Below are positions 54,830 to 62,879 of a DNA stretch of 64,000 bases, in pieces. The position numbers were made by a program, and so were the translations under genes. The notes below the pieces were generated by a model. It was given only the letters and a program-made list of their open reading frames with translations. It did not search any database and was not told where the DNA came from. The first letter of the stretch is position 1. Every line of letters begins with the position of its first letter. This DNA is from Gammaproteobacteria bacterium (GTDB lineage Bacteria; Pseudomonadota; Gammaproteobacteria; Steroidobacterales; JABDKV01), in contig JABDJB010000078.1 of the NCBI GenBank assembly GCA_013003425.1, positions 1 through 64,000 on the forward strand, read 5' to 3'.

Positions 54830-57523
54830 TTATTTAACCCCGCTGCGTTTGTCGGCGATTCTGCACAGCGTGCCAAGGTGACAATCGCTACAGGTTTCAG
54901 GACCGTACTTTGGTTGCACCCGTGCAATGCCGCCGGCAAATTCAGCCGTGAGCGTCTCCAGCGTGGAGCGCCACGCATCAAGCAGGTCATCCCAATCCAG
55001 GCCGGTTTTTTCGGCCAGCTCGCTTTGTTCATAAACCGGCATATCCGATACCACGAGCTCGTGCTGCACGCCGGCAAGATTCATTTGTTCCGCGCTTACA
55101 CAGCCAGTCAGCAACGCAACCGGCTCTTCTTCGGTCGCCAGCGCATAGAGCAACAGGCTCGGCGCATCGGGCCGCTCGCCGAGCCAGCGACCGGCCTGGA
55201 ACGGCGTCGTGTCGTAATCGATGATTGCCAGACCACGATTGTCAACGTGGTCGACCCGATCCACATGGGCGCGCAGGCTGACGCCGGCCATTTCGACGGT
55301 GGCCTGCACATTTGTCTGTCGCACCTCGAATGGCGCGCGGTCAGTTTCGATACGCAACCAATGCAGCAACAGGCGCACCAGCCGTGCATGCTCCAGCGCC
55401 CGATATCGTTTTGACAGACGCACCGGCAGTTTTCTTTCGAAAACCGCCAGCACTGTGTCCGCTACCTCCCAGATCTGCACCTCCAGGTGCTCACCTGTCA
55501 GTGCCGCCTGCAGCACATCGGATGACTCGATCCGGTGCCACATATGCTCCAGGGCCATGCGCACGAGCACTACCCTGGCTTCCGGCCTCACCCCCGGGCG
55601 CAGTGCGCGCAGTGGCTGTGCGCCGAGCCTCTGGACAGCAAACGAGCGGAATGGACAGGCCGACTGCAGGGCCAGCACGTCCTGGTCCAGGTCGATGGTT
55701 TCAACCGGATCGAGCCGCGGACCCTGCCCGTCATCTATTTGTTCAATTTCATCAAGCCCGGGCAGCCCCGGACGATAGTCGGTCAGATCAGCCAGCTCCA
55801 GGTCCTGCGCGGCGATTGACGGCAAAGCGCTGAACACCGCGAGCTGAAAACCGGTGTCGCTTTCACTTGAACGCGATACAACAACTTCGGGCGCCGCGGC
55901 AATAAGCTGGCGAACCATTTTCTCAGCGCGACCTATGCGCAGCGCGGGTGCGCTACCCGGAAGCTTGTGATTACGCTGCCATTCAACCGGCACGAACGGA
56001 TTGGGTTCACCAAATGCGCCGGTCCACCTCTGGTTTGTCGCGTCGCAGATCCACAGGTGATCGAAACTCAGCCACTCGGCATCCTCCGGATTTAATACCC
56101 ATATCGGTACATTACGGGCGTGATACTCGAATTGTCTCTCGCGCAACAAATGTCGCAATAGACGTAATGCCTCGACCGCACCAATGTCGCCGAGTACAAC
56201 ATCGAGCGAGGCGAATTCACTGAGCAGCGAGTCAAAGTCGCGTTGCGCCTGGCGCTGTACGGCATCACGCTGTCCTTCGCCGGGCCAGCCGAATGTTTCA
56301 AGCAGTTCAGTGAACGACCTGGCCCAGTTACTCGGTGGTTGCGGTGCCGGCTTGCTGTCACGCTGCGCCAGATTTTCGAACAGCGTTTCAAGCCGGAAGG
56401 AGCCGGTGGCAATCCCGGTATGATGACGGAATGCCTCCAGCATGCCCGGGACGTGACGCATGTCGACGTCGACAGAGCCTTTCTCGCGCATCCATGCATC
56501 GAAACGTGCCCGCCGCGCTGCTTCGGAAATACCGCCGGCGATAAATGGCGATCGAATAATGCGACTGAGCACCCGCATCGATACAGAACCCATGGACAGG
56601 GCCAGCACATGATCCGCTGCCACGACGACCGGCTGTTTGCGTAATGGCCTGCCGGCGGCGATACCGTACGGTCGCTCGCTTTCTTCGCCCGCACCCGGCA
56701 GGAACGACCCGGGCAGGAAGGCCTTGTCCAGCACCCTCTCAACCCGCTGAAAGGTCTCATCAAGATCCGGCACTACCAGCGCCAGCCGCGCATCAGGATT
56801 GCTCACGACCCGGCTGCGCAACCATCTTGCGGCTGTTTCCAGCTCTGCATGCTGGTCATGGAGCGTCAGCATACTGGCCGCGCTGGAGCCTTGTTCGGCC
56901 CGCACCATTCCCAGCCGCGTGCCCATATTGGTCAATGCCCGGAGCAAGGCTCGCTGCTGTGGATTGAAACCGGAAAAACCAACCAGCAGCACGCGGCCTG
57001 GCACCGGCACTGCGCCTGAGCCGATGGCCGGCACCAGGGAGTCGATCACACGCGCGGAGTCCAGCCATGACCGTGCCACACAGGTCTCGTGATAGGCCTT
57101 CATCCAGGCCGAAAAGGCGTTCTCTTCACGCGAGCTGAAGCCCACCGTGCCAGGGTCGGGCATGCGCCATTCCTGCAGCGCACCCCATGCCTGTCTGGCG
57201 AGTTGCGCTGTGGCACGAATATTCAGCGGCACATAGTCGGACTGGCTGACAATCCGTTCCCAGAGAAGACGTTCCTGCAGCGGCGTCAATAGCTGTCGGC
57301 GTCCGGCCGGCGATGCATAGCCGGACCAGAGCACCTGCTCACCCAGTGTGCGCAGCCACTGCTGCCAGGCGAGCACCCGGCCTCGCTGCCAGGCCTGCAC
57401 GCCCTTTTCCGCCTGACCGCTGGCGTAGTTACGGCGAATCTCATTACTCAGGCGCTTGCTGGATGTCACGACTACCGCGCCCGAGCTCAACGCATCGCGA
57501 ATGCGCTCAGATAACGCAGGCAT
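54830..57523 (-). CDS. AddB-like PD-(D/E)XK nuclease (probable DNA repair protein)
   Basis: An 897-residue protein. The N-terminal two thirds resemble an inactive helicase (no Walker A; opens with AVVVTSSKRLSNEIRRNYA). The last third is a PD-(D/E)XK nuclease: HVDRVDHVDNRGLAIIDYDT, with the iron-sulfur staple made of the cysteine in QSACPFRSFAVQRLGA and the trio C878, C881 and C887 in CSDCHLGTLC. This matches the proteobacterial probable DNA repair protein family (TIGR03623-like). It is the first gene of a two-gene unit with the AddA-like helicase. Confidence 0.85.
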   Translation of the reverse strand: MPALSERIRDALSSGAVVVTSSKRLSNEIRRNYASGQAEKGVQAWQRGRVLAWQQWLRTLGEQVLWSGYASPAGRRQLLTPLQERLLWERIVSQSDYVPLNIRATAQLARQAWGALQEWRMPDPGTVGFSSREENAFSAWMKAYHETCVARSWLDSARVIDSLVPAIGSGAVPVPGRVLLVGFSGFNPQQRALLRALTNMGTRLGMVRAEQGSSAASMLTLHDQHAELETAARWLRSRVVSNPDARLALVVPDLDETFQRVERVLDKAFLPGSFLPGAGEESERPYGIAAGRPLRKQPVVVAADHVLALSMGSVSMRVLSRIIRSPFIAGGISEAARRARFDAWMREKGSVDVDMRHVPGMLEAFRHHTGIATGSFRLETLFENLAQRDSKPAPQPPSNWARSFTELLETFGWPGEGQRDAVQRQAQRDFDSLLSEFASLDVVLGDIGAVEALRLLRHLLRERQFEYHARNVPIWVLNPEDAEWLSFDHLWICDATNQRWTGAFGEPNPFVPVEWQRNHKLPGSAPALRIGRAEKMVRQLIAAAPEVVVSRSSESDTGFQLAVFSALPSIAAQDLELADLTDYRPGLPGLDEIEQIDDGQGPRLDPVETIDLDQDVLALQSACPFRSFAVQRLGAQPLRALRPGVRPEARVVLVRMALEHMWHRIESSDVLQAALTGEHLEVQIWEVADTVLAVFERKLPVRLSKRYRALEHARLVRLLLHWLRIETDRAPFEVRQTNVQATVEMAGVSLRAHVDRVDHVDNRGLAIIDYDTTPFQAGRWLGERPDAPSLLLYALATEEEPVALLTGCVSAEQMNLAGVQHELVVSDMPVYEQSELAEKTGLDWDDLLDAWRSTLETLTAEFAGGIARVQPKYGPETCSDCHLGTLCRIADKRSGVK

Positions 57524-57792
57524 GGTCGTGTACTCCCCGTTCCCGGTCCAGGCCGGAAGTGCTGTTCCCGGCGCACCGATCTATCGGCATCACCGCCCCA
57601 GCCTTGAATGCGCAGCACTTTCGCCGCATGTAGCCTGACCTACTTCGCCCCAAAGCAAAGCCTCCCGCGCTGGTCGTTGCTCCCCAGACCGCGGGCTCGA
57701 GCTGTACATACTGTGCACTGGCCGCCGTCTGCGGCAGAATTGTACACGATCGAATTTTCTCAGGACAGGCAGCCACCCTCGAATTTGCCAGT

Positions 57793-58917
57793 ATGACTAT
57801 CAGCGACAGCAATTCTGAAGCGAGGTTTCTCGCGCTGCTCGACGCGGCAGTCGACGGCATACTGGTGATTGACGCCAACGGCATAATTGAGACTTTTAAT
57901 CGTGCCGCGGAGATATTGTTCGGTTATTCGGCCAGCGAGGTCATCGCGAAAAAGGTCAACATGCTGATGCCGGCACCTTACCGGGAGGAGCACGACGGCT
58001 ACATCATGCACTACCTGCAGACCGGCGAGAGAAAGGTCATCGGCATCGGTCGCGAAGTCAGTGCACGGCGCAAGAATGGCGAGGAATTCCCTATCGAGTT
58101 GTCAGTGGGAGAAATACACCACGGTGACGAGCCGAAGTTTGTCGGGATCATCCGTGATCTCACCGAACGCAAGGAAACCGCCCGCCTGTTGCGACAACAG
58201 CAGGAGCGACTGGACCAGGTGATGCGGTTGGGAACGCTTGGCGAAATGGCTGCTGGCATCGCCCATGAAATCAACCAGCCGCTGACGGCTATCTCGACCT
58301 ACTCACAGGCCGCGCGACGCATGATCGTCAGCGGACAGCTGCAGGAGGAACGTCTGCTGGAGATACTCGACAAGACCCGCAATCAGGCAGTACGCGCCGG
58401 CGAGGTGATTCGCCGGATCCGCCAGATGGCGCGCAACAGACCGGCAGCCCGGGAACTGCGCGACGCGGCCACGGTCGTGGATGAGGCCCTGCAGCTGGCG
58501 GAAACCGACAGCAGGCTGCAGAAAGTGGCATTGTTGCGCCGCGACGAAAAGCACCGCCCGCAGGCCTGGCTTGACTCCGTTCAGATCCAGCAGGTGTTGC
58601 TCAACCTGCTGCACAACGCGGTAGAAACTGATCCGCCGCCAACCCAGCTGCTGGTGCGCGTTTACAGCACAAAGCCTGAAGAGATAACGGTCGAAGTAAG
58701 CGATAATGGACCCGGGATACCAGCCGACTTACTATCGGAAATATTCAATCCGTTTTTCACTACCAAGGAACAGGGGACCGGTATGGGTTTGTCCATCAGC
58801 CGCTCGATCGTCGCAGCCCACGGGGGACGCCTGGAGGCGAGCAGCAGTTCGACCGGTGGCGCGACGTTTTCTGTGGTGTTACCCACCGCTATAGATGAAA
58901 AAAATGCAGCAGACTGA
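57793..58917 (+). CDS. FixL-like PAS sensor histidine kinase lacking the haem histidine
   Basis: A 374-residue cytoplasmic kinase with one PAS domain (about 8-125), an HK box with His158 (GIAHEINQPLTAIS) and an ATPase with LLNLLHNAVETD, DNGPGIP and GTGMGLSISRS. The PAS part is close to FixL: HDGYIMHYLQTGERKVIGIGREVSARRKNG aligns with the oxygen-sensing domain. In FixL the haem ligand is a histidine just before IIGIGR; here that place is Lys81. So haem binding in the FixL manner is unlikely. It overlaps the FixJ-like regulator gene and should phosphorylate it. The 269-base gap upstream shows no clear promoter. Confidence 0.88.
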   Translation: MTISDSNSEARFLALLDAAVDGILVIDANGIIETFNRAAEILFGYSASEVIAKKVNMLMPAPYREEHDGYIMHYLQTGERKVIGIGREVSARRKNGEEFPIELSVGEIHHGDEPKFVGIIRDLTERKETARLLRQQQERLDQVMRLGTLGEMAAGIAHEINQPLTAISTYSQAARRMIVSGQLQEERLLEILDKTRNQAVRAGEVIRRIRQMARNRPAARELRDAATVVDEALQLAETDSRLQKVALLRRDEKHRPQAWLDSVQIQQVLLNLLHNAVETDPPPTQLLVRVYSTKPEEITVEVSDNGPGIPADLLSEIFNPFFTTKEQGTGMGLSISRSIVAAHGGRLEASSSSTGGATFSVVLPTAIDEKNAAD

Positions 58918-59518
58918 GCAGCCAACTGTATACATCGTGGATGACGATGAGGCTGTCCGCGACTCGTTAAGCCTGTTAATGGAAGCGGCATCGCTGCCAT
59001 TTGAGTGTTTTGCCACTGCCAATGACTTTCTGGAAAACCGGTCAGTGAACAAGCCAGGTTGCCTGGTCCTTGATATCAGGATGCCGGGAATGACCGGCCT
59101 GGAGCTGCGCGATGAGTTGCACCGCCGCAATGCACTGCTTCCGATAATCTTCATTACCGGCCATGGTGACGTACCAATGGCGGTCGACGCGATGAAGCAT
59201 GGCGCTGTGGACTTCATCCAGAAGCCTTTCGCAGATGAGGCATTGCTCGACCGGATCCAGCAGGCCCTGGAGCTTAACGCCACAGAGCGAAGCGCAGCAC
59301 AGTTGCGTAATGCAGTGCATAACAACTACCTGCGACTGACGCCGCGTGAACGTGAGGTAATGGCGATGGTCGTGTCGGGCAATGCCAACAAGGTCATTGC
59401 GCAGGATCTCGGTGTCAGCCAGCGCACGGTAGAGATTCATCGTGCCCGGGTGATGGAAAAAATGCAGGCCCGCTCAATTGCTCAGCTCGTACAGCAGGCC
59501 GGAATCCTCGATAAGTAG
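58895..59518 (+). CDS. FixJ-like response regulator with LuxR output
   Basis: A 207-residue regulator. The receiver has the acidic DDDE cluster, phospho-Asp60 in LVLDIRMPGMTGLEL, the threonine in IIFITGHGDVPMAVDAMKHG and lysine in FIQKPF. The C-terminal LuxR domain is LTPREREVMAMVVSGNANKV with AQDLGVSQRTVEIHRARVM. It starts inside the kinase gene (23-base overlap) and is the cognate partner. Target genes are unknown; no FixJ box was seen. Confidence 0.92.
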   Translation: MKKMQQTEQPTVYIVDDDEAVRDSLSLLMEAASLPFECFATANDFLENRSVNKPGCLVLDIRMPGMTGLELRDELHRRNALLPIIFITGHGDVPMAVDAMKHGAVDFIQKPFADEALLDRIQQALELNATERSAAQLRNAVHNNYLRLTPREREVMAMVVSGNANKVIAQDLGVSQRTVEIHRARVMEKMQARSIAQLVQQAGILDK

Positions 59519-59586
59519 TACCCCCTATTTACCGTTTCCTGATCGGGGCGGATTATGGCCGCAATACAACAACCGCTGGTAGCAAC

Positions 59587-59967
59587 GTGGGCCCCGCCAC
59601 AATTCAGGACGCCGCGGTATTCGTGGTCGAAGAAAACCCTAGCGAAGCGACTCATTCGGCTTTTGACGGGCTGCCGTGGCCGGTGCACCGCTATCCTGAC
59701 TTTGCCGCACTGCTTGATTCCCTCGTTGAGCCAGCGCGCGGCTGCGTGGTGGCCAGCGTGGACTCGCCCGGCGAGGCTGCACTGACGATGCTGGAACAAC
59801 TGCGCAGCAACCAGCATCGCCTTGCGTTGATACTGGTATGCGACCGGGTTGATGTCCCTGAAGCCGTCGCTGCCATGCGTGCCGGGGTGTCAGACGTGTT
59901 GCAACGGCCGGTTGCCGCACGCGCGCTGCGTCACCGGGTCCAGGGCGCGGTTGAATCCAGACTATAG
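59587..59967 (+). CDS. Receiver-like protein without phospho-acceptor (pseudo-receiver), possibly frameshifted at its start
   Basis: A 126-residue stand-alone domain that aligns with the FixJ receiver next door. GCVVASVDSPGEA stands where FixJ has GCLVLDIRMPGMT, so the phospho-Asp is serine; the lysine of QKP is arginine (VLQRPV), and the N-terminal acidic group is VVEENPS. The visible start is a GTG at 59587 with no good ribosome site. An ATG at 59555 with GGGGCGG upstream is one base out of frame; one extra C in the C-run at 59592-59595 would join it to this frame. So this may be a real frameshift, a sequencing slip, or a true GTG start. It probably modulates the FixL/FixJ-like pair. Confidence 0.65.
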   Translation: MGPATIQDAAVFVVEENPSEATHSAFDGLPWPVHRYPDFAALLDSLVEPARGCVVASVDSPGEAALTMLEQLRSNQHRLALILVCDRVDVPEAVAAMRAGVSDVLQRPVAARALRHRVQGAVESRL

Positions 59968-59980
59968 ATTAAATAGTCTT
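59959..59980 (+). terminator. Weak terminator after the pseudo-receiver gene
   Basis: A 7-bp AT-rich stem (AGACTAT 59959-59965 with ATAGTCT 59973-59979) overlaps the pseudo-receiver stop codon and leads into TTCTTAG and, further on, a run of eight T (59992-59999). It may end the kinase-regulator transcript. The stem is weak. Confidence 0.35.
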
Positions 59981-59982
59981 TC

Positions 59983-61605
59983 TTAGTTATTGTTTTTTTT
60001 GGATTTATTTCGGCAATAATCCAGCAGCTGTAGCGTTGAAGGGTTACGTGAGCTGCCCAGCGGTTGGTTAAGACCGGGCAGGATCTCGCCTGCCAGCTGC
60101 TTGCCCAGCTCGACACCCCACTGGTCGAAAGAGTTGATTCCCCAGATGATGCCCTGCACGAAGATCTTGTGTTCGTACAGTGCAACCAGGCTGCCCAGGG
60201 CCCGCGGATCGAGCTGCTGCAGAAGAATCGTATTGCTGGGCCGGTTGCCGGCAAACGTCCGGTGTGGTGCGAGTTCAGCGCTGCTGTGCTGGCGGGTCTC
60301 CTCAAGACTCCTGCCCAGCATCAGGGCCTCACTCTGGGCGAAGCAGTTTGCCAGCAGCAGGTCATGATGCTCGCGCAACGGATGCCCGGGATTCACCACG
60401 GCGATAAAATCTGCCGGCACCAGCCGCGAACCCTGGTGTAACAGCTGGAAATAGGCGTGCTGCGAGTTGGTCCCGGGGCTACCCCAAACCACCGGCCCGG
60501 TGTGGTAGTCGATCAGATCGCCATCAACAGTCGTGTGTTTGCCGTTGCTCTCCATATCGGCCTGTTGCAGATACTCCGGCAACCAGCGCAGTTGTTCTGC
60601 ATAAGGCAGAACCGCGCAGGTTTCGGCGCCGAGAAAATTGTTGTACCAGACGCCCAGCAGTGCCATCAGCACGGGCCAGTTTTCGTGCAACTCGCTGTCG
60701 CGAAAATGTCTGTCCATAGCGTGAGCACCGGCCAGAAGCTGCTCGAATCGCTCGAACCCGACACTCAGGATAATCGGCAAGCCGATTGCAGACCACAGCG
60801 AGTAGCGACCACCAACCCAGTCCCAGAAGCCGAACATGTTCTCGGTATCGATGCCAAATGCAGCGACCTTTTCAGCATTGGTTGAAACAGCAACAAAGTG
60901 TCGTTCGACATCGGCGGCCGTCGCCCCGCCATCCAGCAGCCATGATCTGGCCGTGGCAGCATTTGTCATTGTCTCCTGCGTACCGAAACTTTTTGACGCC
61001 ACTATAAACAGCGTCGATGCCGGGTTCAGGGTCTGCAGCCGGGAATGGATATCTGCGCCGTCGATATTGGAAACAAAATGTACCGCCGGGCCATCGGCAA
61101 AGTCACGTAGCGCGGTCGTAACCATCTGCGGACCAAGGTGTGATCCGCCGATACCGATATTGACGACGTCGCGTATCGGCAGCCCGCTAAAGCCCAGCCA
61201 GCTTCCATCGCGTACCTTCTGGCTGAATACCGCCAGGCGACCCAGCACCTGGTGTACGGCCGGCACAACATCAGTGCCGTCCAGAATAACGCGTTCAGTG
61301 GCCGGCGCGCGCAAGGCAGTATGCAAGACTGCCCGCTGCTCGGTAACGTTCAGTCGGTTGCCGGTAAAACTCTTTGCGATTGCACCCGGGATATCGCGCT
61401 CTAGCGCCAGCTGCAGCAGCAGCGCCAGGCCATCATCGTCAATGCGGTTCTTTGAGTAATCGAGGAACAGGCCCTCAAAGGTGCTGCTGAAGCGCGACGC
61501 ACGCTGTAGATCAGCCGCAAACAGCTCGCGCATGTGAACGGCACCGAAACTGCGGCGATACTCACCAAGCTCGCGCCAGGCCGTGCAACTGGTCAGTTTT
61601 TTCAC
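59983..61605 (-). CDS. pgi: Glucose-6-phosphate isomerase
   Basis: A 540-residue enzyme. It has NIGIGGSHLGPQMVTTAL for phosphate, FIVASKSFGTQETMTNA, and the active-site glutamates/histidine in FGFWDWVGGRYSLWSAIGLP and QLDMES-like segments (YLQQADMESNGKH, NSFDQWGVELGKQLA). The GTG start overlaps the glgC stop by four bases (GTGA), so the two are coupled. It interconverts glucose 6-phosphate and fructose 6-phosphate. The last ten residues are a run of Lys/Asn (CRNKSKKNNN). Confidence 0.95.
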   Translation of the reverse strand: MKKLTSCTAWRELGEYRRSFGAVHMRELFAADLQRASRFSSTFEGLFLDYSKNRIDDDGLALLLQLALERDIPGAIAKSFTGNRLNVTEQRAVLHTALRAPATERVILDGTDVVPAVHQVLGRLAVFSQKVRDGSWLGFSGLPIRDVVNIGIGGSHLGPQMVTTALRDFADGPAVHFVSNIDGADIHSRLQTLNPASTLFIVASKSFGTQETMTNAATARSWLLDGGATAADVERHFVAVSTNAEKVAAFGIDTENMFGFWDWVGGRYSLWSAIGLPIILSVGFERFEQLLAGAHAMDRHFRDSELHENWPVLMALLGVWYNNFLGAETCAVLPYAEQLRWLPEYLQQADMESNGKHTTVDGDLIDYHTGPVVWGSPGTNSQHAYFQLLHQGSRLVPADFIAVVNPGHPLREHHDLLLANCFAQSEALMLGRSLEETRQHSSAELAPHRTFAGNRPSNTILLQQLDPRALGSLVALYEHKIFVQGIIWGINSFDQWGVELGKQLAGEILPGLNQPLGSSRNPSTLQLLDYCRNKSKKNNN

Positions 61606-62879
61606 TTCAGGTGATTCGGTTCCTGCCCGAGCATTTCGGGAACGACCAGCGTCACACCATGGTCTGTCACCCGGTACCGTTGGCGATCTTCGTCGGGGTA
61701 ATAACCGATAATTGTCCCATCCGGTATAACCACGCCCTTGTCTATCACGGCCTTGTTTATCTTGCAGGCCGCACCAATGCGCACGTCGGGCAGGATTACC
61801 GAATCCTCCACGACAGTATGATTTTCGATATGCACATTTGAAAACAGCAGCGAACGGCTGACCGTAGCGCCTGACACAATGCAGCCGCCAGATACCATCG
61901 AGTCGAGCGCCATGCCGCGCTTGTCTTCAAAATCAAATACAAATTTTGCCGGCGGCAGTTGCTCCTGGTAAGTCCATATCGGCCAGTCATGGTCGTAAAG
62001 GTTTAGCTCCGGCGTGACACCGAGCAGCTCAAGATTTGCGGACCAATAGGACTCTACCGTGCCGACATCCCGCCAGTAAGCACGTTGGCCGGTTTCCGGA
62101 TCGCGGAATGGAAAGGCTGCGACGTGATAGTGGTCAATACAGGACGGAATGATGTCCTTGCCAAAGTCATGACTGGAATCGCCATCATCAGCATCACTGG
62201 CCAGCAGCTCACACAGCAGCCCTGTCTCGAACACGTAAATACCCATCGAGGCCATCGCATGGGTGGTGCTGCCCGGCAATGGCTGCGGCTCAGCCGGCTT
62301 CTCCTGGAATGCCGTAACGCGGTTTTGCCCGTCGGTCTGCATCACCCCGAAACCCTTGGCATCCTCCAGTGGCACCTCGATGCACCCGACAGTGATGTCG
62401 GCACCTGTTTCGGCATGAAATGCCAGCAGATTACCGTAGTCCATTTTGTAGATGTGGTCGCCACCGAGTATCAAAACGTAGCGCGGGTTATGACGGCGGA
62501 TTATGTCGATATTCTGGTAGATAGCATCAGCCGTGCCGGCATACCAGCCAGTGTGCAGATGCTGCATGGCGGGCAACAACTCGACAAACTCATTGAGCTC
62601 TGCACGCAGGAAGCCCCAGCCCTGTTGAATGTGCCGGATCAGCGAGTACGCCTTGTACTGGCTGAGCACGCCAATCCGCCGCAGGTCAGAGTTGATGCAG
62701 TTGGACAGGGGAAAATCGATTATGCGGAATTTGCCACCAAAGGGCATTGAAGGCTTTGCCCGCCAGCGCGTCAGGTCCAGCAGTCGGGTGCCACCACCGC
62801 CGGCAAGGATCAGTGCCAGCGTGTCCTTCGTCAGACGGCTAACAAACCTGGGTGTTTGTCTCGCGGGGGTACTCATCAA
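61602..62879 (-). CDS. glgC: Glucose-1-phosphate adenylyltransferase
   Basis: A 425-residue ADP-glucose pyrophosphorylase. The signature ALILAGGGGTRLLDLT and RAKPSMPFGGKFRIIDFPLS lie near the N-terminus, ILGGDHIYKMDYGNLLAFH follows, and the C-terminal left-handed helix domain (VIDKGVVIPDGTIIGYYPDE) closes the chain. It makes ADP-glucose for glycogen. It is divergent from glgA across 152 bases. Confidence 0.95.
   Translation of the reverse strand: MMSTPARQTPRFVSRLTKDTLALILAGGGGTRLLDLTRWRAKPSMPFGGKFRIIDFPLSNCINSDLRRIGVLSQYKAYSLIRHIQQGWGFLRAELNEFVELLPAMQHLHTGWYAGTADAIYQNIDIIRRHNPRYVLILGGDHIYKMDYGNLLAFHAETGADITVGCIEVPLEDAKGFGVMQTDGQNRVTAFQEKPAEPQPLPGSTTHAMASMGIYVFETGLLCELLASDADDGDSSHDFGKDIIPSCIDHYHVAAFPFRDPETGQRAYWRDVGTVESYWSANLELLGVTPELNLYDHDWPIWTYQEQLPPAKFVFDFEDKRGMALDSMVSGGCIVSGATVSRSLLFSNVHIENHTVVEDSVILPDVRIGAACKINKAVIDKGVVIPDGTIIGYYPDEDRQRYRVTDHGVTLVVPEMLGQEPNHLK

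Follow-up and report, generated by a model that had tools for sequence, protein, structure and literature searches.

Gene content of the locus

A 64,000-nucleotide (nt) stretch of a gammaproteobacterial genome of the order Steroidobacterales (GenBank assembly GCA_013003425.1, contig JABDJB010000078.1, positions 1 to 64,000; referred to here as the window) contains a fixL-like kinase gene, a fixJ-like regulator gene, and, behind them on the same strand, a small third gene encoding a receiver-like domain (Table 1). This third gene is the subject of the present analysis. The start of the fixJ-like gene overlaps the end of the fixL-like gene by 23 nt, and 68 nt separate the fixJ-like gene from the GTG of the third gene. 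The host genome comprises 3.26 Mb in 115 contigs.

Table 1. Positions of the genes and sequence elements discussed in the text, in window coordinates.
Feature	Position	Strand	Basis
fixL-like sensor histidine kinase, 374 amino acids (aa): heme-PAS-like domain, HisKA, HATPase_c	57793..58917	+	Pfam, NCBIfam, PAS alignment
fixJ-like response regulator, 207 aa: receiver and LuxR-type helix-turn-helix	58895..59518	+	Pfam, NCBIfam, active-site residues
Single-domain pseudo-receiver, 126 aa, GTG start; third gene of presumed operon	59587..59967	+	Homologues, model, fold match
Out-of-frame open reading frame (ORF) from the first-pass annotation's ATG, 76 codons plus stop; judged not to be a gene	59555..59785	+	Translation
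GGGGCGG, predicted ribosome site before the out-of-frame ATG, spacing 3 nt	59545..59551	+	Sequence, duplex energy
CCCC run, proposed slip site	59592..59595	+	Sequence, codon context

Pfam profiles matched PAS, HisKA, and HATPase_c domains in the kinase, for which the best NCBIfam match was FixL (354 bits, below that model's cut-off of 850). The PAS domain aligned with the heme domain of Bradyrhizobium FixL (E = 1.8e-33); the His of its EEHDGYI motif pairs with that of SRHDSYI in Bradyrhizobium FixL, and the Arg of IGIGR is retained. We take the His of EEHDGYI to be the heme ligand and the Arg of GIGR to be the distal Arg. The regulator matched Response_reg and GerE in Pfam and FixJ in NCBIfam (244 bits, slightly below the cut-off of 255), and its active site is intact (D, D, D, T, K). 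With the heme-PAS His and Arg, a phospho-acceptor His, and an intact FixJ site, the two genes are predicted to encode a FixL-FixJ oxygen-sensing pair that would bind heme. Because the genome carries the cbb3 oxidase gene ccoN (758.6 bits in a profile search) and no nifH above the cut-off was found in it (best match, 29.4 bits; cut-off, 394), the output of the pathway is probably microaerobic respiration rather than nitrogen fixation.

Fold and active site of the third protein

The best sequence match of the third protein in the PDB was FixJ (5xso, E = 9.5e-10). Response_reg was the sole Pfam domain found in it (E = 1.6e-6; 28.6 bits, slightly below the curated cut-off of 30.2). An AlphaFold model computed from a 17-row alignment (predicted local distance difference test [pLDDT], 88.6; predicted template modeling score [pTM], 0.84) predicted a complete receiver fold of five strands and five helices, ending with helix 5, and the nearest PDB fold to this model was full-length FixJ (Foldseek, 5xt2, E = 2e-6). 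The five active-site positions read E, E, S, C, and R. The first-pass annotation of this DNA, made from the letters alone, had aligned the domain with the FixJ receiver and reported Ser for the phospho-Asp and Arg for the Lys; both residue calls are correct, and Cys additionally replaces Thr. The protein thus has a receiver fold with missing active-site residues, which defines a pseudo-receiver, and with the phospho-Asp among the missing residues it is also aspartate-less. Its sequence does not contain the residues that normal phosphorylation requires. At the start of helix 1 (positions 59629-59667), it is two residues shorter than the other rows of the family profile A1, described below.

Start site of the third gene

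The first-pass annotation had suggested that translation may begin at an ATG lying one base out of frame with the receiver and that one extra C in a C run would restore a single frame, either through slippage as a control or after correction of a sequencing slip. The elements of this proposal are all present: the ATG at 59555, the GGGGCGG before it, and the CCCC at 59592-59595. Insertion of one base would fuse the two frames (413 + 1 = 414 nt, 137 codons plus stop), and the predicted ribosome site of the ATG is stronger than that of the GTG (anti-Shine-Dalgarno pairing over the 20 nt before the ATG, -6.5 versus -2.8 kcal/mol), with GGGGCGG only 3 nt away. From base composition, a gap of 68 nt would be expected to contain about 1.03 ATGs, and the window contains 203 runs of at least four C or G residues. 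The upstream ATG is no more than chance would supply; the receiver ORF is more.

The GTG at 59587 is the first in-frame ATG, GTG, or TTG past the upstream stop. It sits 14 residues ahead of the first acidic position, where a start at 59555 would sit 25 ahead, and in each of the 50 family copies one of these three codons occurs 10 to 20 residues before that position. In the same genus, the starts are GTG at 17 residues (locus L064), GTG at 15 residues (L003), and ATG at 17 residues (L063); in the nucleotide alignment these three fall in one column, with the window GTG two columns further on. The first-pass annotation had stated that orthologues starting at the GTG with no conserved upstream ATG would refute the proposal. 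This refutation holds in part: the relatives do start near the window GTG, but an upstream ATG is present in two of the three, at differing offsets.

Three of the four same-genus members (window, 59555; L063, 3649; L003, 1904) carry an out-of-frame ATG some 30 nt ahead of the third gene, in matching positions of the alignment, and L064 has ATT there. The distance to the start is 32 nt in the window, 28 in L063, and 29 in L003, and the peptides opened by these ATGs are unrelated to each other. Because the frames and peptides differ, the shared ATG is probably due to chance or leftover homology. The codons at the C run are TGG GCC CCG, which do not form a canonical -1 slippery heptamer, and a run of four C residues is short for transcriptional slippage. 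Programmed frameshifting is recognized by a slip site and a fused frame that relatives share, and the same-genus relatives showed no such conservation. Frameshifting and slippage were rejected on the comparison of start sites with relatives and on the codon context of the C run, and nothing requires a sequencing error. As the sequence reads, the third gene is intact and is predicted to be translated from the GTG at 59587, with no need of a frameshift.

Distribution of the third gene and its association with FixL

Matches to the pseudo-receiver (E ≤ 0.001) were found in 66 of 97 related genomes, many of them FixJ and other receivers. Third-gene homologues adjoin FixJ in genomes of the same genus (43 to 46% identity) and, among the matches listed, in several further families of the order. 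A search of 296 genomes of the order could not be used as a count of third genes, because its profile also matches FixJ in nearly every genome. In a sample of 185 genomes of the class, searched at a strict threshold that may miss diverged copies (E ≤ 1e-36), seven genomes matched: the window's own, one with a further third gene (locus L149, genome G420), and five with FixJ-like matches, which were regulators in ORFs of 217 to 277 aa.

The association with FixL was examined in the 80 FixJ loci nearest the window FixJ, taken from a collection of named genomes that may omit records very near the window; the sample was thus drawn by FixJ similarity and not by the third gene. Where named, the FixJ relatives were from Steroidobacter, Peristeroidobacter, Povalibacter, and Woeseiaceae, alongside many gammaproteobacterial metagenome-assembled genomes (MAGs). 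Carriers of the genes include records with the titles Povalibacter uvarum, Steroidobacter gossypii, and S. agaridevorans (L075, L073, and L079). A FixL-like kinase lay directly upstream of FixJ in 34 of the 80 loci (the FixL-linked loci), all 34 with the end of the kinase ORF at most 40 nt from the FixJ domain. A third receiver was present in 30 of these 34 loci, its domain beginning 82 to 411 nt behind fixJ, versus 0 of the 46 others. As a pattern this contrast is strong, but its statistical weight is low, since the split follows lineages and the loci are not independent events. The four FixL-linked loci without a third receiver were L083, where the contig stops 245 nt past fixJ, and L101, L119, and L127, where a reading by eye found no receiver ORF downstream of fixJ and unrelated ORFs instead. 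The other 46 close FixJ homologues (including L082, L084, L086-L090, and L093-L097) had no FixL-like match on the same strand of the locus, and 11 of them had a weaker kinase match on the opposite strand. The relatives used to build profile A1 (17 rows) reappear under other names in the set of 80 loci (L002/L064 and L004/L063), and those rows therefore match by construction.

Among 37 kinase partners in third-gene loci, the distal Arg was retained in every one and the heme His in 35; of the other two, one has Gln and one is not covered at that position. Where the third gene is absent, the His was present in 9 of 15 kinase ORFs and the Arg in 10 of 15. These counts cover ORFs of more than 330 aa, with a few genomes counted twice and L083 among the 15.

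The third gene is real and is conserved behind FixLJ in this lineage. The pseudo-receiver that the first-pass annotation placed beside a FixL/FixJ-like pair thus recurs next to FixJ in many genomes, beyond what chance would give.

Active-site loss and conservation across the family

Merging of 75 third-gene matches by identical last 70 residues left 50 nonredundant copies. L020 and L024, whose loci hold no FixJ, were excluded from all counts; L023, at a contig end, was counted and left out of the tree. The first acidic residue is kept in 42 copies and lost in 8. The second acidic-pocket residue survives in 2 copies and has disappeared from the other 48, and the window copy is unusual in retaining an acid (Glu) there. 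The phospho-Asp is kept in 20 copies and lost in 30, where it is replaced by Glu (14 copies), Ala (5), Asn (4), Ser (3), or Thr, Gly, Lys, or His (1 each). At the Thr position, 5 copies have Thr and 8 have Ser, and the Lys is kept in 35. All five active-site residues occur together in 0 of 50 third-gene copies versus 49 of 49 FixJ partners (one with Thr to Ser).

Mean pairwise identity within the family is highest in helix 4 (0.62) and strand 5 (0.65), with 0.28 to 0.50 in the other elements and the minimum of 0.28 in helix 1. Helix 4 and strand 5 are also the most FixJ-like elements (0.52 and 0.60). The loop between strand 4 and helix 4, nearly invariant in FixJ (0.99), has drifted in the third genes.

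Four copies (L092, L124, L129, and L140) form a strongly diverged sub-branch with profile scores of 50 to 54 bits, Asp for Thr, and no Lys. The FixL-FixJ-third-gene loci of L124, L129, and L140 are closely similar, with third-gene tip branches below 0.05. Their titles name Janthinobacterium lividum, "Candidatus Planktophila lacus," and an uncultured proteobacterium, the first two of which are probably wrong MAG labels. The excluded L020 and L024 (genomes G032 and G081; positions 1477-1974 and 1477-1953) are single receivers of the third-gene type with Glu at the phosphorylation site and no FixJ within their 3.3-kb loci.

Phylogeny and origin

A tree of 79 receiver domains over 133 columns was built from 49 third-gene rows, 26 FixJ rows (alternate members of the set of 49 FixJ partners, with the window FixJ added), and 4 Sinorhizobium FixT rows. 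The 26 FixJ rows formed one clade (support 100/100) without any of the 49 third-gene rows; because this clade excludes them all, recent duplication of the neighboring fixJ does not account for the third genes. The four FixT rows also formed a clade, which sits on a branch 6.7 changes per column long and lies apart from both the third-gene and the FixJ rows. A sister relation of the third genes to FixT was looked for in this tree and not found, the FixT clade being separate and distant. The tree is weakened by few columns, long branches, and open forks. The third genes may have had a single origin. A tentative scenario, to which we give less than even weight, is that a FixT-like kinase brake arose separately from Rhizobium FixT, in the gammaproteobacterial lineage of Steroidobacter and its relatives, from an ancient FixJ-like receiver. 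It would have taken the same place behind fixLJ, and its phosphorylation chemistry would have been lost by many routes, with the Asp changed to Glu, Asn, Ser, Ala, Thr, Gly, Lys, or His; the helix 4/strand 5 face would have been preserved.

Putative role of the third gene

By analogy, we propose with about even confidence that the third gene acts in the manner of FixT, binding the FixL kinase core and lowering FixL autophosphorylation. Excerpts of PMC7078487 describe FixT of Sinorhizobium meliloti and Caulobacter crescentus as a single-domain receiver that inhibits FixL autophosphorylation and for which phosphorylation was not detected, and excerpts of PMC9430884 describe inhibition of CckA by Osp. 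A brake on FixL is the best model because FixT and Osp inhibit kinases and because the Sinorhizobium gene order fixL-fixJ-fixT matches that of the window. The third gene, presumably cotranscribed with fixL and fixJ, would yield a small receiver-fold protein that would bind the FixL kinase core; autophosphorylation would fall on binding, and the oxygen response would presumably be braked or placed under feedback. The first-pass annotation had likewise suggested a decoy that binds the kinase, with slippage as a control. The decoy part fits the FixL association (30/34 versus 0/46) and the same position of FixT in Sinorhizobium; the slippage part is not supported.

Several observations weigh against a brake on FixL. 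Helix 1 is the usual kinase-docking helix of receivers; in the window pseudo-receiver it is predicted to span only 6 residues, and its identity to helix 1 of the window's own FixJ is 0.00. Glu is retained at both acidic-pocket positions of the window copy. That helix 4 and strand 5 are the best-conserved elements of the family and helix 1 the least fits a FixJ-directed role equally well or better. The contrast between FixL-linked and other loci tracks lineages, with Woeseia or Woeseiaceae titles in 25 of the 46 loci without FixL versus 0 of the 34 with it. FixL-FixJ pairs without the third gene occur at seven places in the order (L014, L017, L018, L026, L060, L062, and L029/L057), and five more were found in the class (L144-L148), where the kinases lack the heme signature; the third gene is therefore dispensable. 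The tree does not join the third genes to FixT. No sigma-70-type promoter was predicted in 57500-60100 (1.1 expected), and no FNR-type box was found just before the operon in a scan of the whole window, and any feedback control of expression is therefore hypothetical. FNR-type boxes with 2 mismatches numbered 25 in the window versus 15.7 expected, a count matched by 4 of 100 shuffles; those closest to the operon lie at 55742 and, within the third gene, at 59849.

An alternative that we consider unlikely, at about half the weight given to the brake, is that the pseudo-receiver binds FixJ instead of FixL, forming mixed dimers through the helix 4/strand 5 face that tune or block FixJ activation. 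This face is the dimer face of FixJ, and its two elements are both the most conserved in the family and the most FixJ-like. Pseudo-receiver/receiver heterodimers, including the WhiI-BldM pair, are discussed in excerpts of the review PMC12632262 and offer a precedent. Set against mixed dimers, the gene is absent from all 46 FixJ loci without FixL, though those FixJ proteins may serve another pathway. Identity to a copy's own FixJ and to other FixJ proteins differs by at most 0.03 in either direction in every element, and there is therefore no sign of pair-by-pair matching to FixJ.

Less probable again is a stand-alone, coexpressed module with a partner other than FixL or FixJ, on which FixLJ would act by changing its level. 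Its activity would follow its abundance because the active site is gone, and a model of this class is described for CmrT in excerpts of PMC12632262. The window neighborhood gives no hint of another partner, as the flanks, inspected by eye with no family search, look metabolic or nuclease-like. Decay of a functionless duplicate of a FixJ-like receiver is quite improbable. The third gene has diverged more than its neighbors (window versus L063/L064: third gene, 43 to 44% identity; FixJ, 71 to 72%; FixL, 65 to 66%), and the third genes have long tree branches; however, no inner stop occurs in any of the matches listed, the position is kept, and conservation is high in helix 4 and strand 5. A protein that truly starts at the ATG at 59555, reached through slippage at the C run or masked by a sequencing slip, is very improbable given the start-site comparison above. 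A brake on FixL remains the proposed role; the third gene is probably FixT-like in its working, though its sequence does not make it FixT.

Other genes flank the locus at 59983-61605 (minus strand), at 61602-62879 (minus strand), from 63032 onward (plus strand), and at 54830-57523 (minus strand). Judged by eye, with no family search, they resemble glucose-6-phosphate isomerase, glucose-1-phosphate adenylyltransferase, glycogen synthase, and a RecB-type nuclease family protein.

Comparison with known systems

The third gene resembles FixT in being a bare receiver domain with no output domain, in gene order, and in its degenerate acidic pocket. The order fixL-fixJ-fixT of S. meliloti is that of the window and is shared by S. 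fredii, whose FixT homologue carries the annotation hypothetical. FixT and Osp, as unphosphorylated kinase inhibitors, are described in excerpts of PMC9430884 as lacking the two acidic residues that precede helix 1. In S. meliloti FixT the two pocket positions read A, A, and the family has lost the second acid in 48 of 50 copies; in contrast, the first is lost in only 8 of 50, and the window copy has Glu-Glu. S. meliloti FixT also lacks the helix 4/strand 5 signature of the third genes and keeps the Asp and Lys that are Ser and Arg in the window copy. The third genes and the four Sinorhizobium FixT rows do not group by sequence, in a tree of few columns and long branches, and the gene is called a FixT-like brake rather than FixT because kinship to FixT is not supported.

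Caulobacter FixT is set apart by description rather than by sequence: its 4-Cys motif is presented as unique to it in excerpts of PMC7078487, whereas the number of Cys is 2 in the window domain and at most 3 in 48 of the 50 family domains. An Fe-S FixT of the Caulobacter type was ruled out by this cysteine count. Osp of Rhodobacter sphaeroides, also compared by description, is likewise a lone receiver domain whose unphosphorylated form acts on a kinase; according to excerpts of PMC9430884, it differs in its hybrid-kinase target, its presumed transcription alone, and its retention of Asp51. The FixJ receiver is the nearest fold (5xt2) and the nearest sequence family and is encoded at the same locus, but the third protein has no DNA-binding domain, has lost the active site, and falls outside the 100/100 FixJ clade. 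CmrT of Clostridioides difficile is comparable as a third operon member beside a kinase and a regulator (excerpts of PMC12632262); it is an OmpR-family regulator (excerpts of PMC12548384), whereas the window protein is a bare domain.

Among the best-ranked matches in open-licence PubMed Central, no paper on the third gene was found. Kinase-inhibiting single-domain receivers are described for FixT and Osp in alphaproteobacteria (excerpts of PMC7078487 and PMC9430884). The 50 pseudo-receivers at FixL-linked loci, mostly gammaproteobacterial and with graded loss of the active site, would be natural variants for the question of how a receiver becomes an inhibitor, and the family would help to ask whether such a receiver grips the kinase or its partner regulator.
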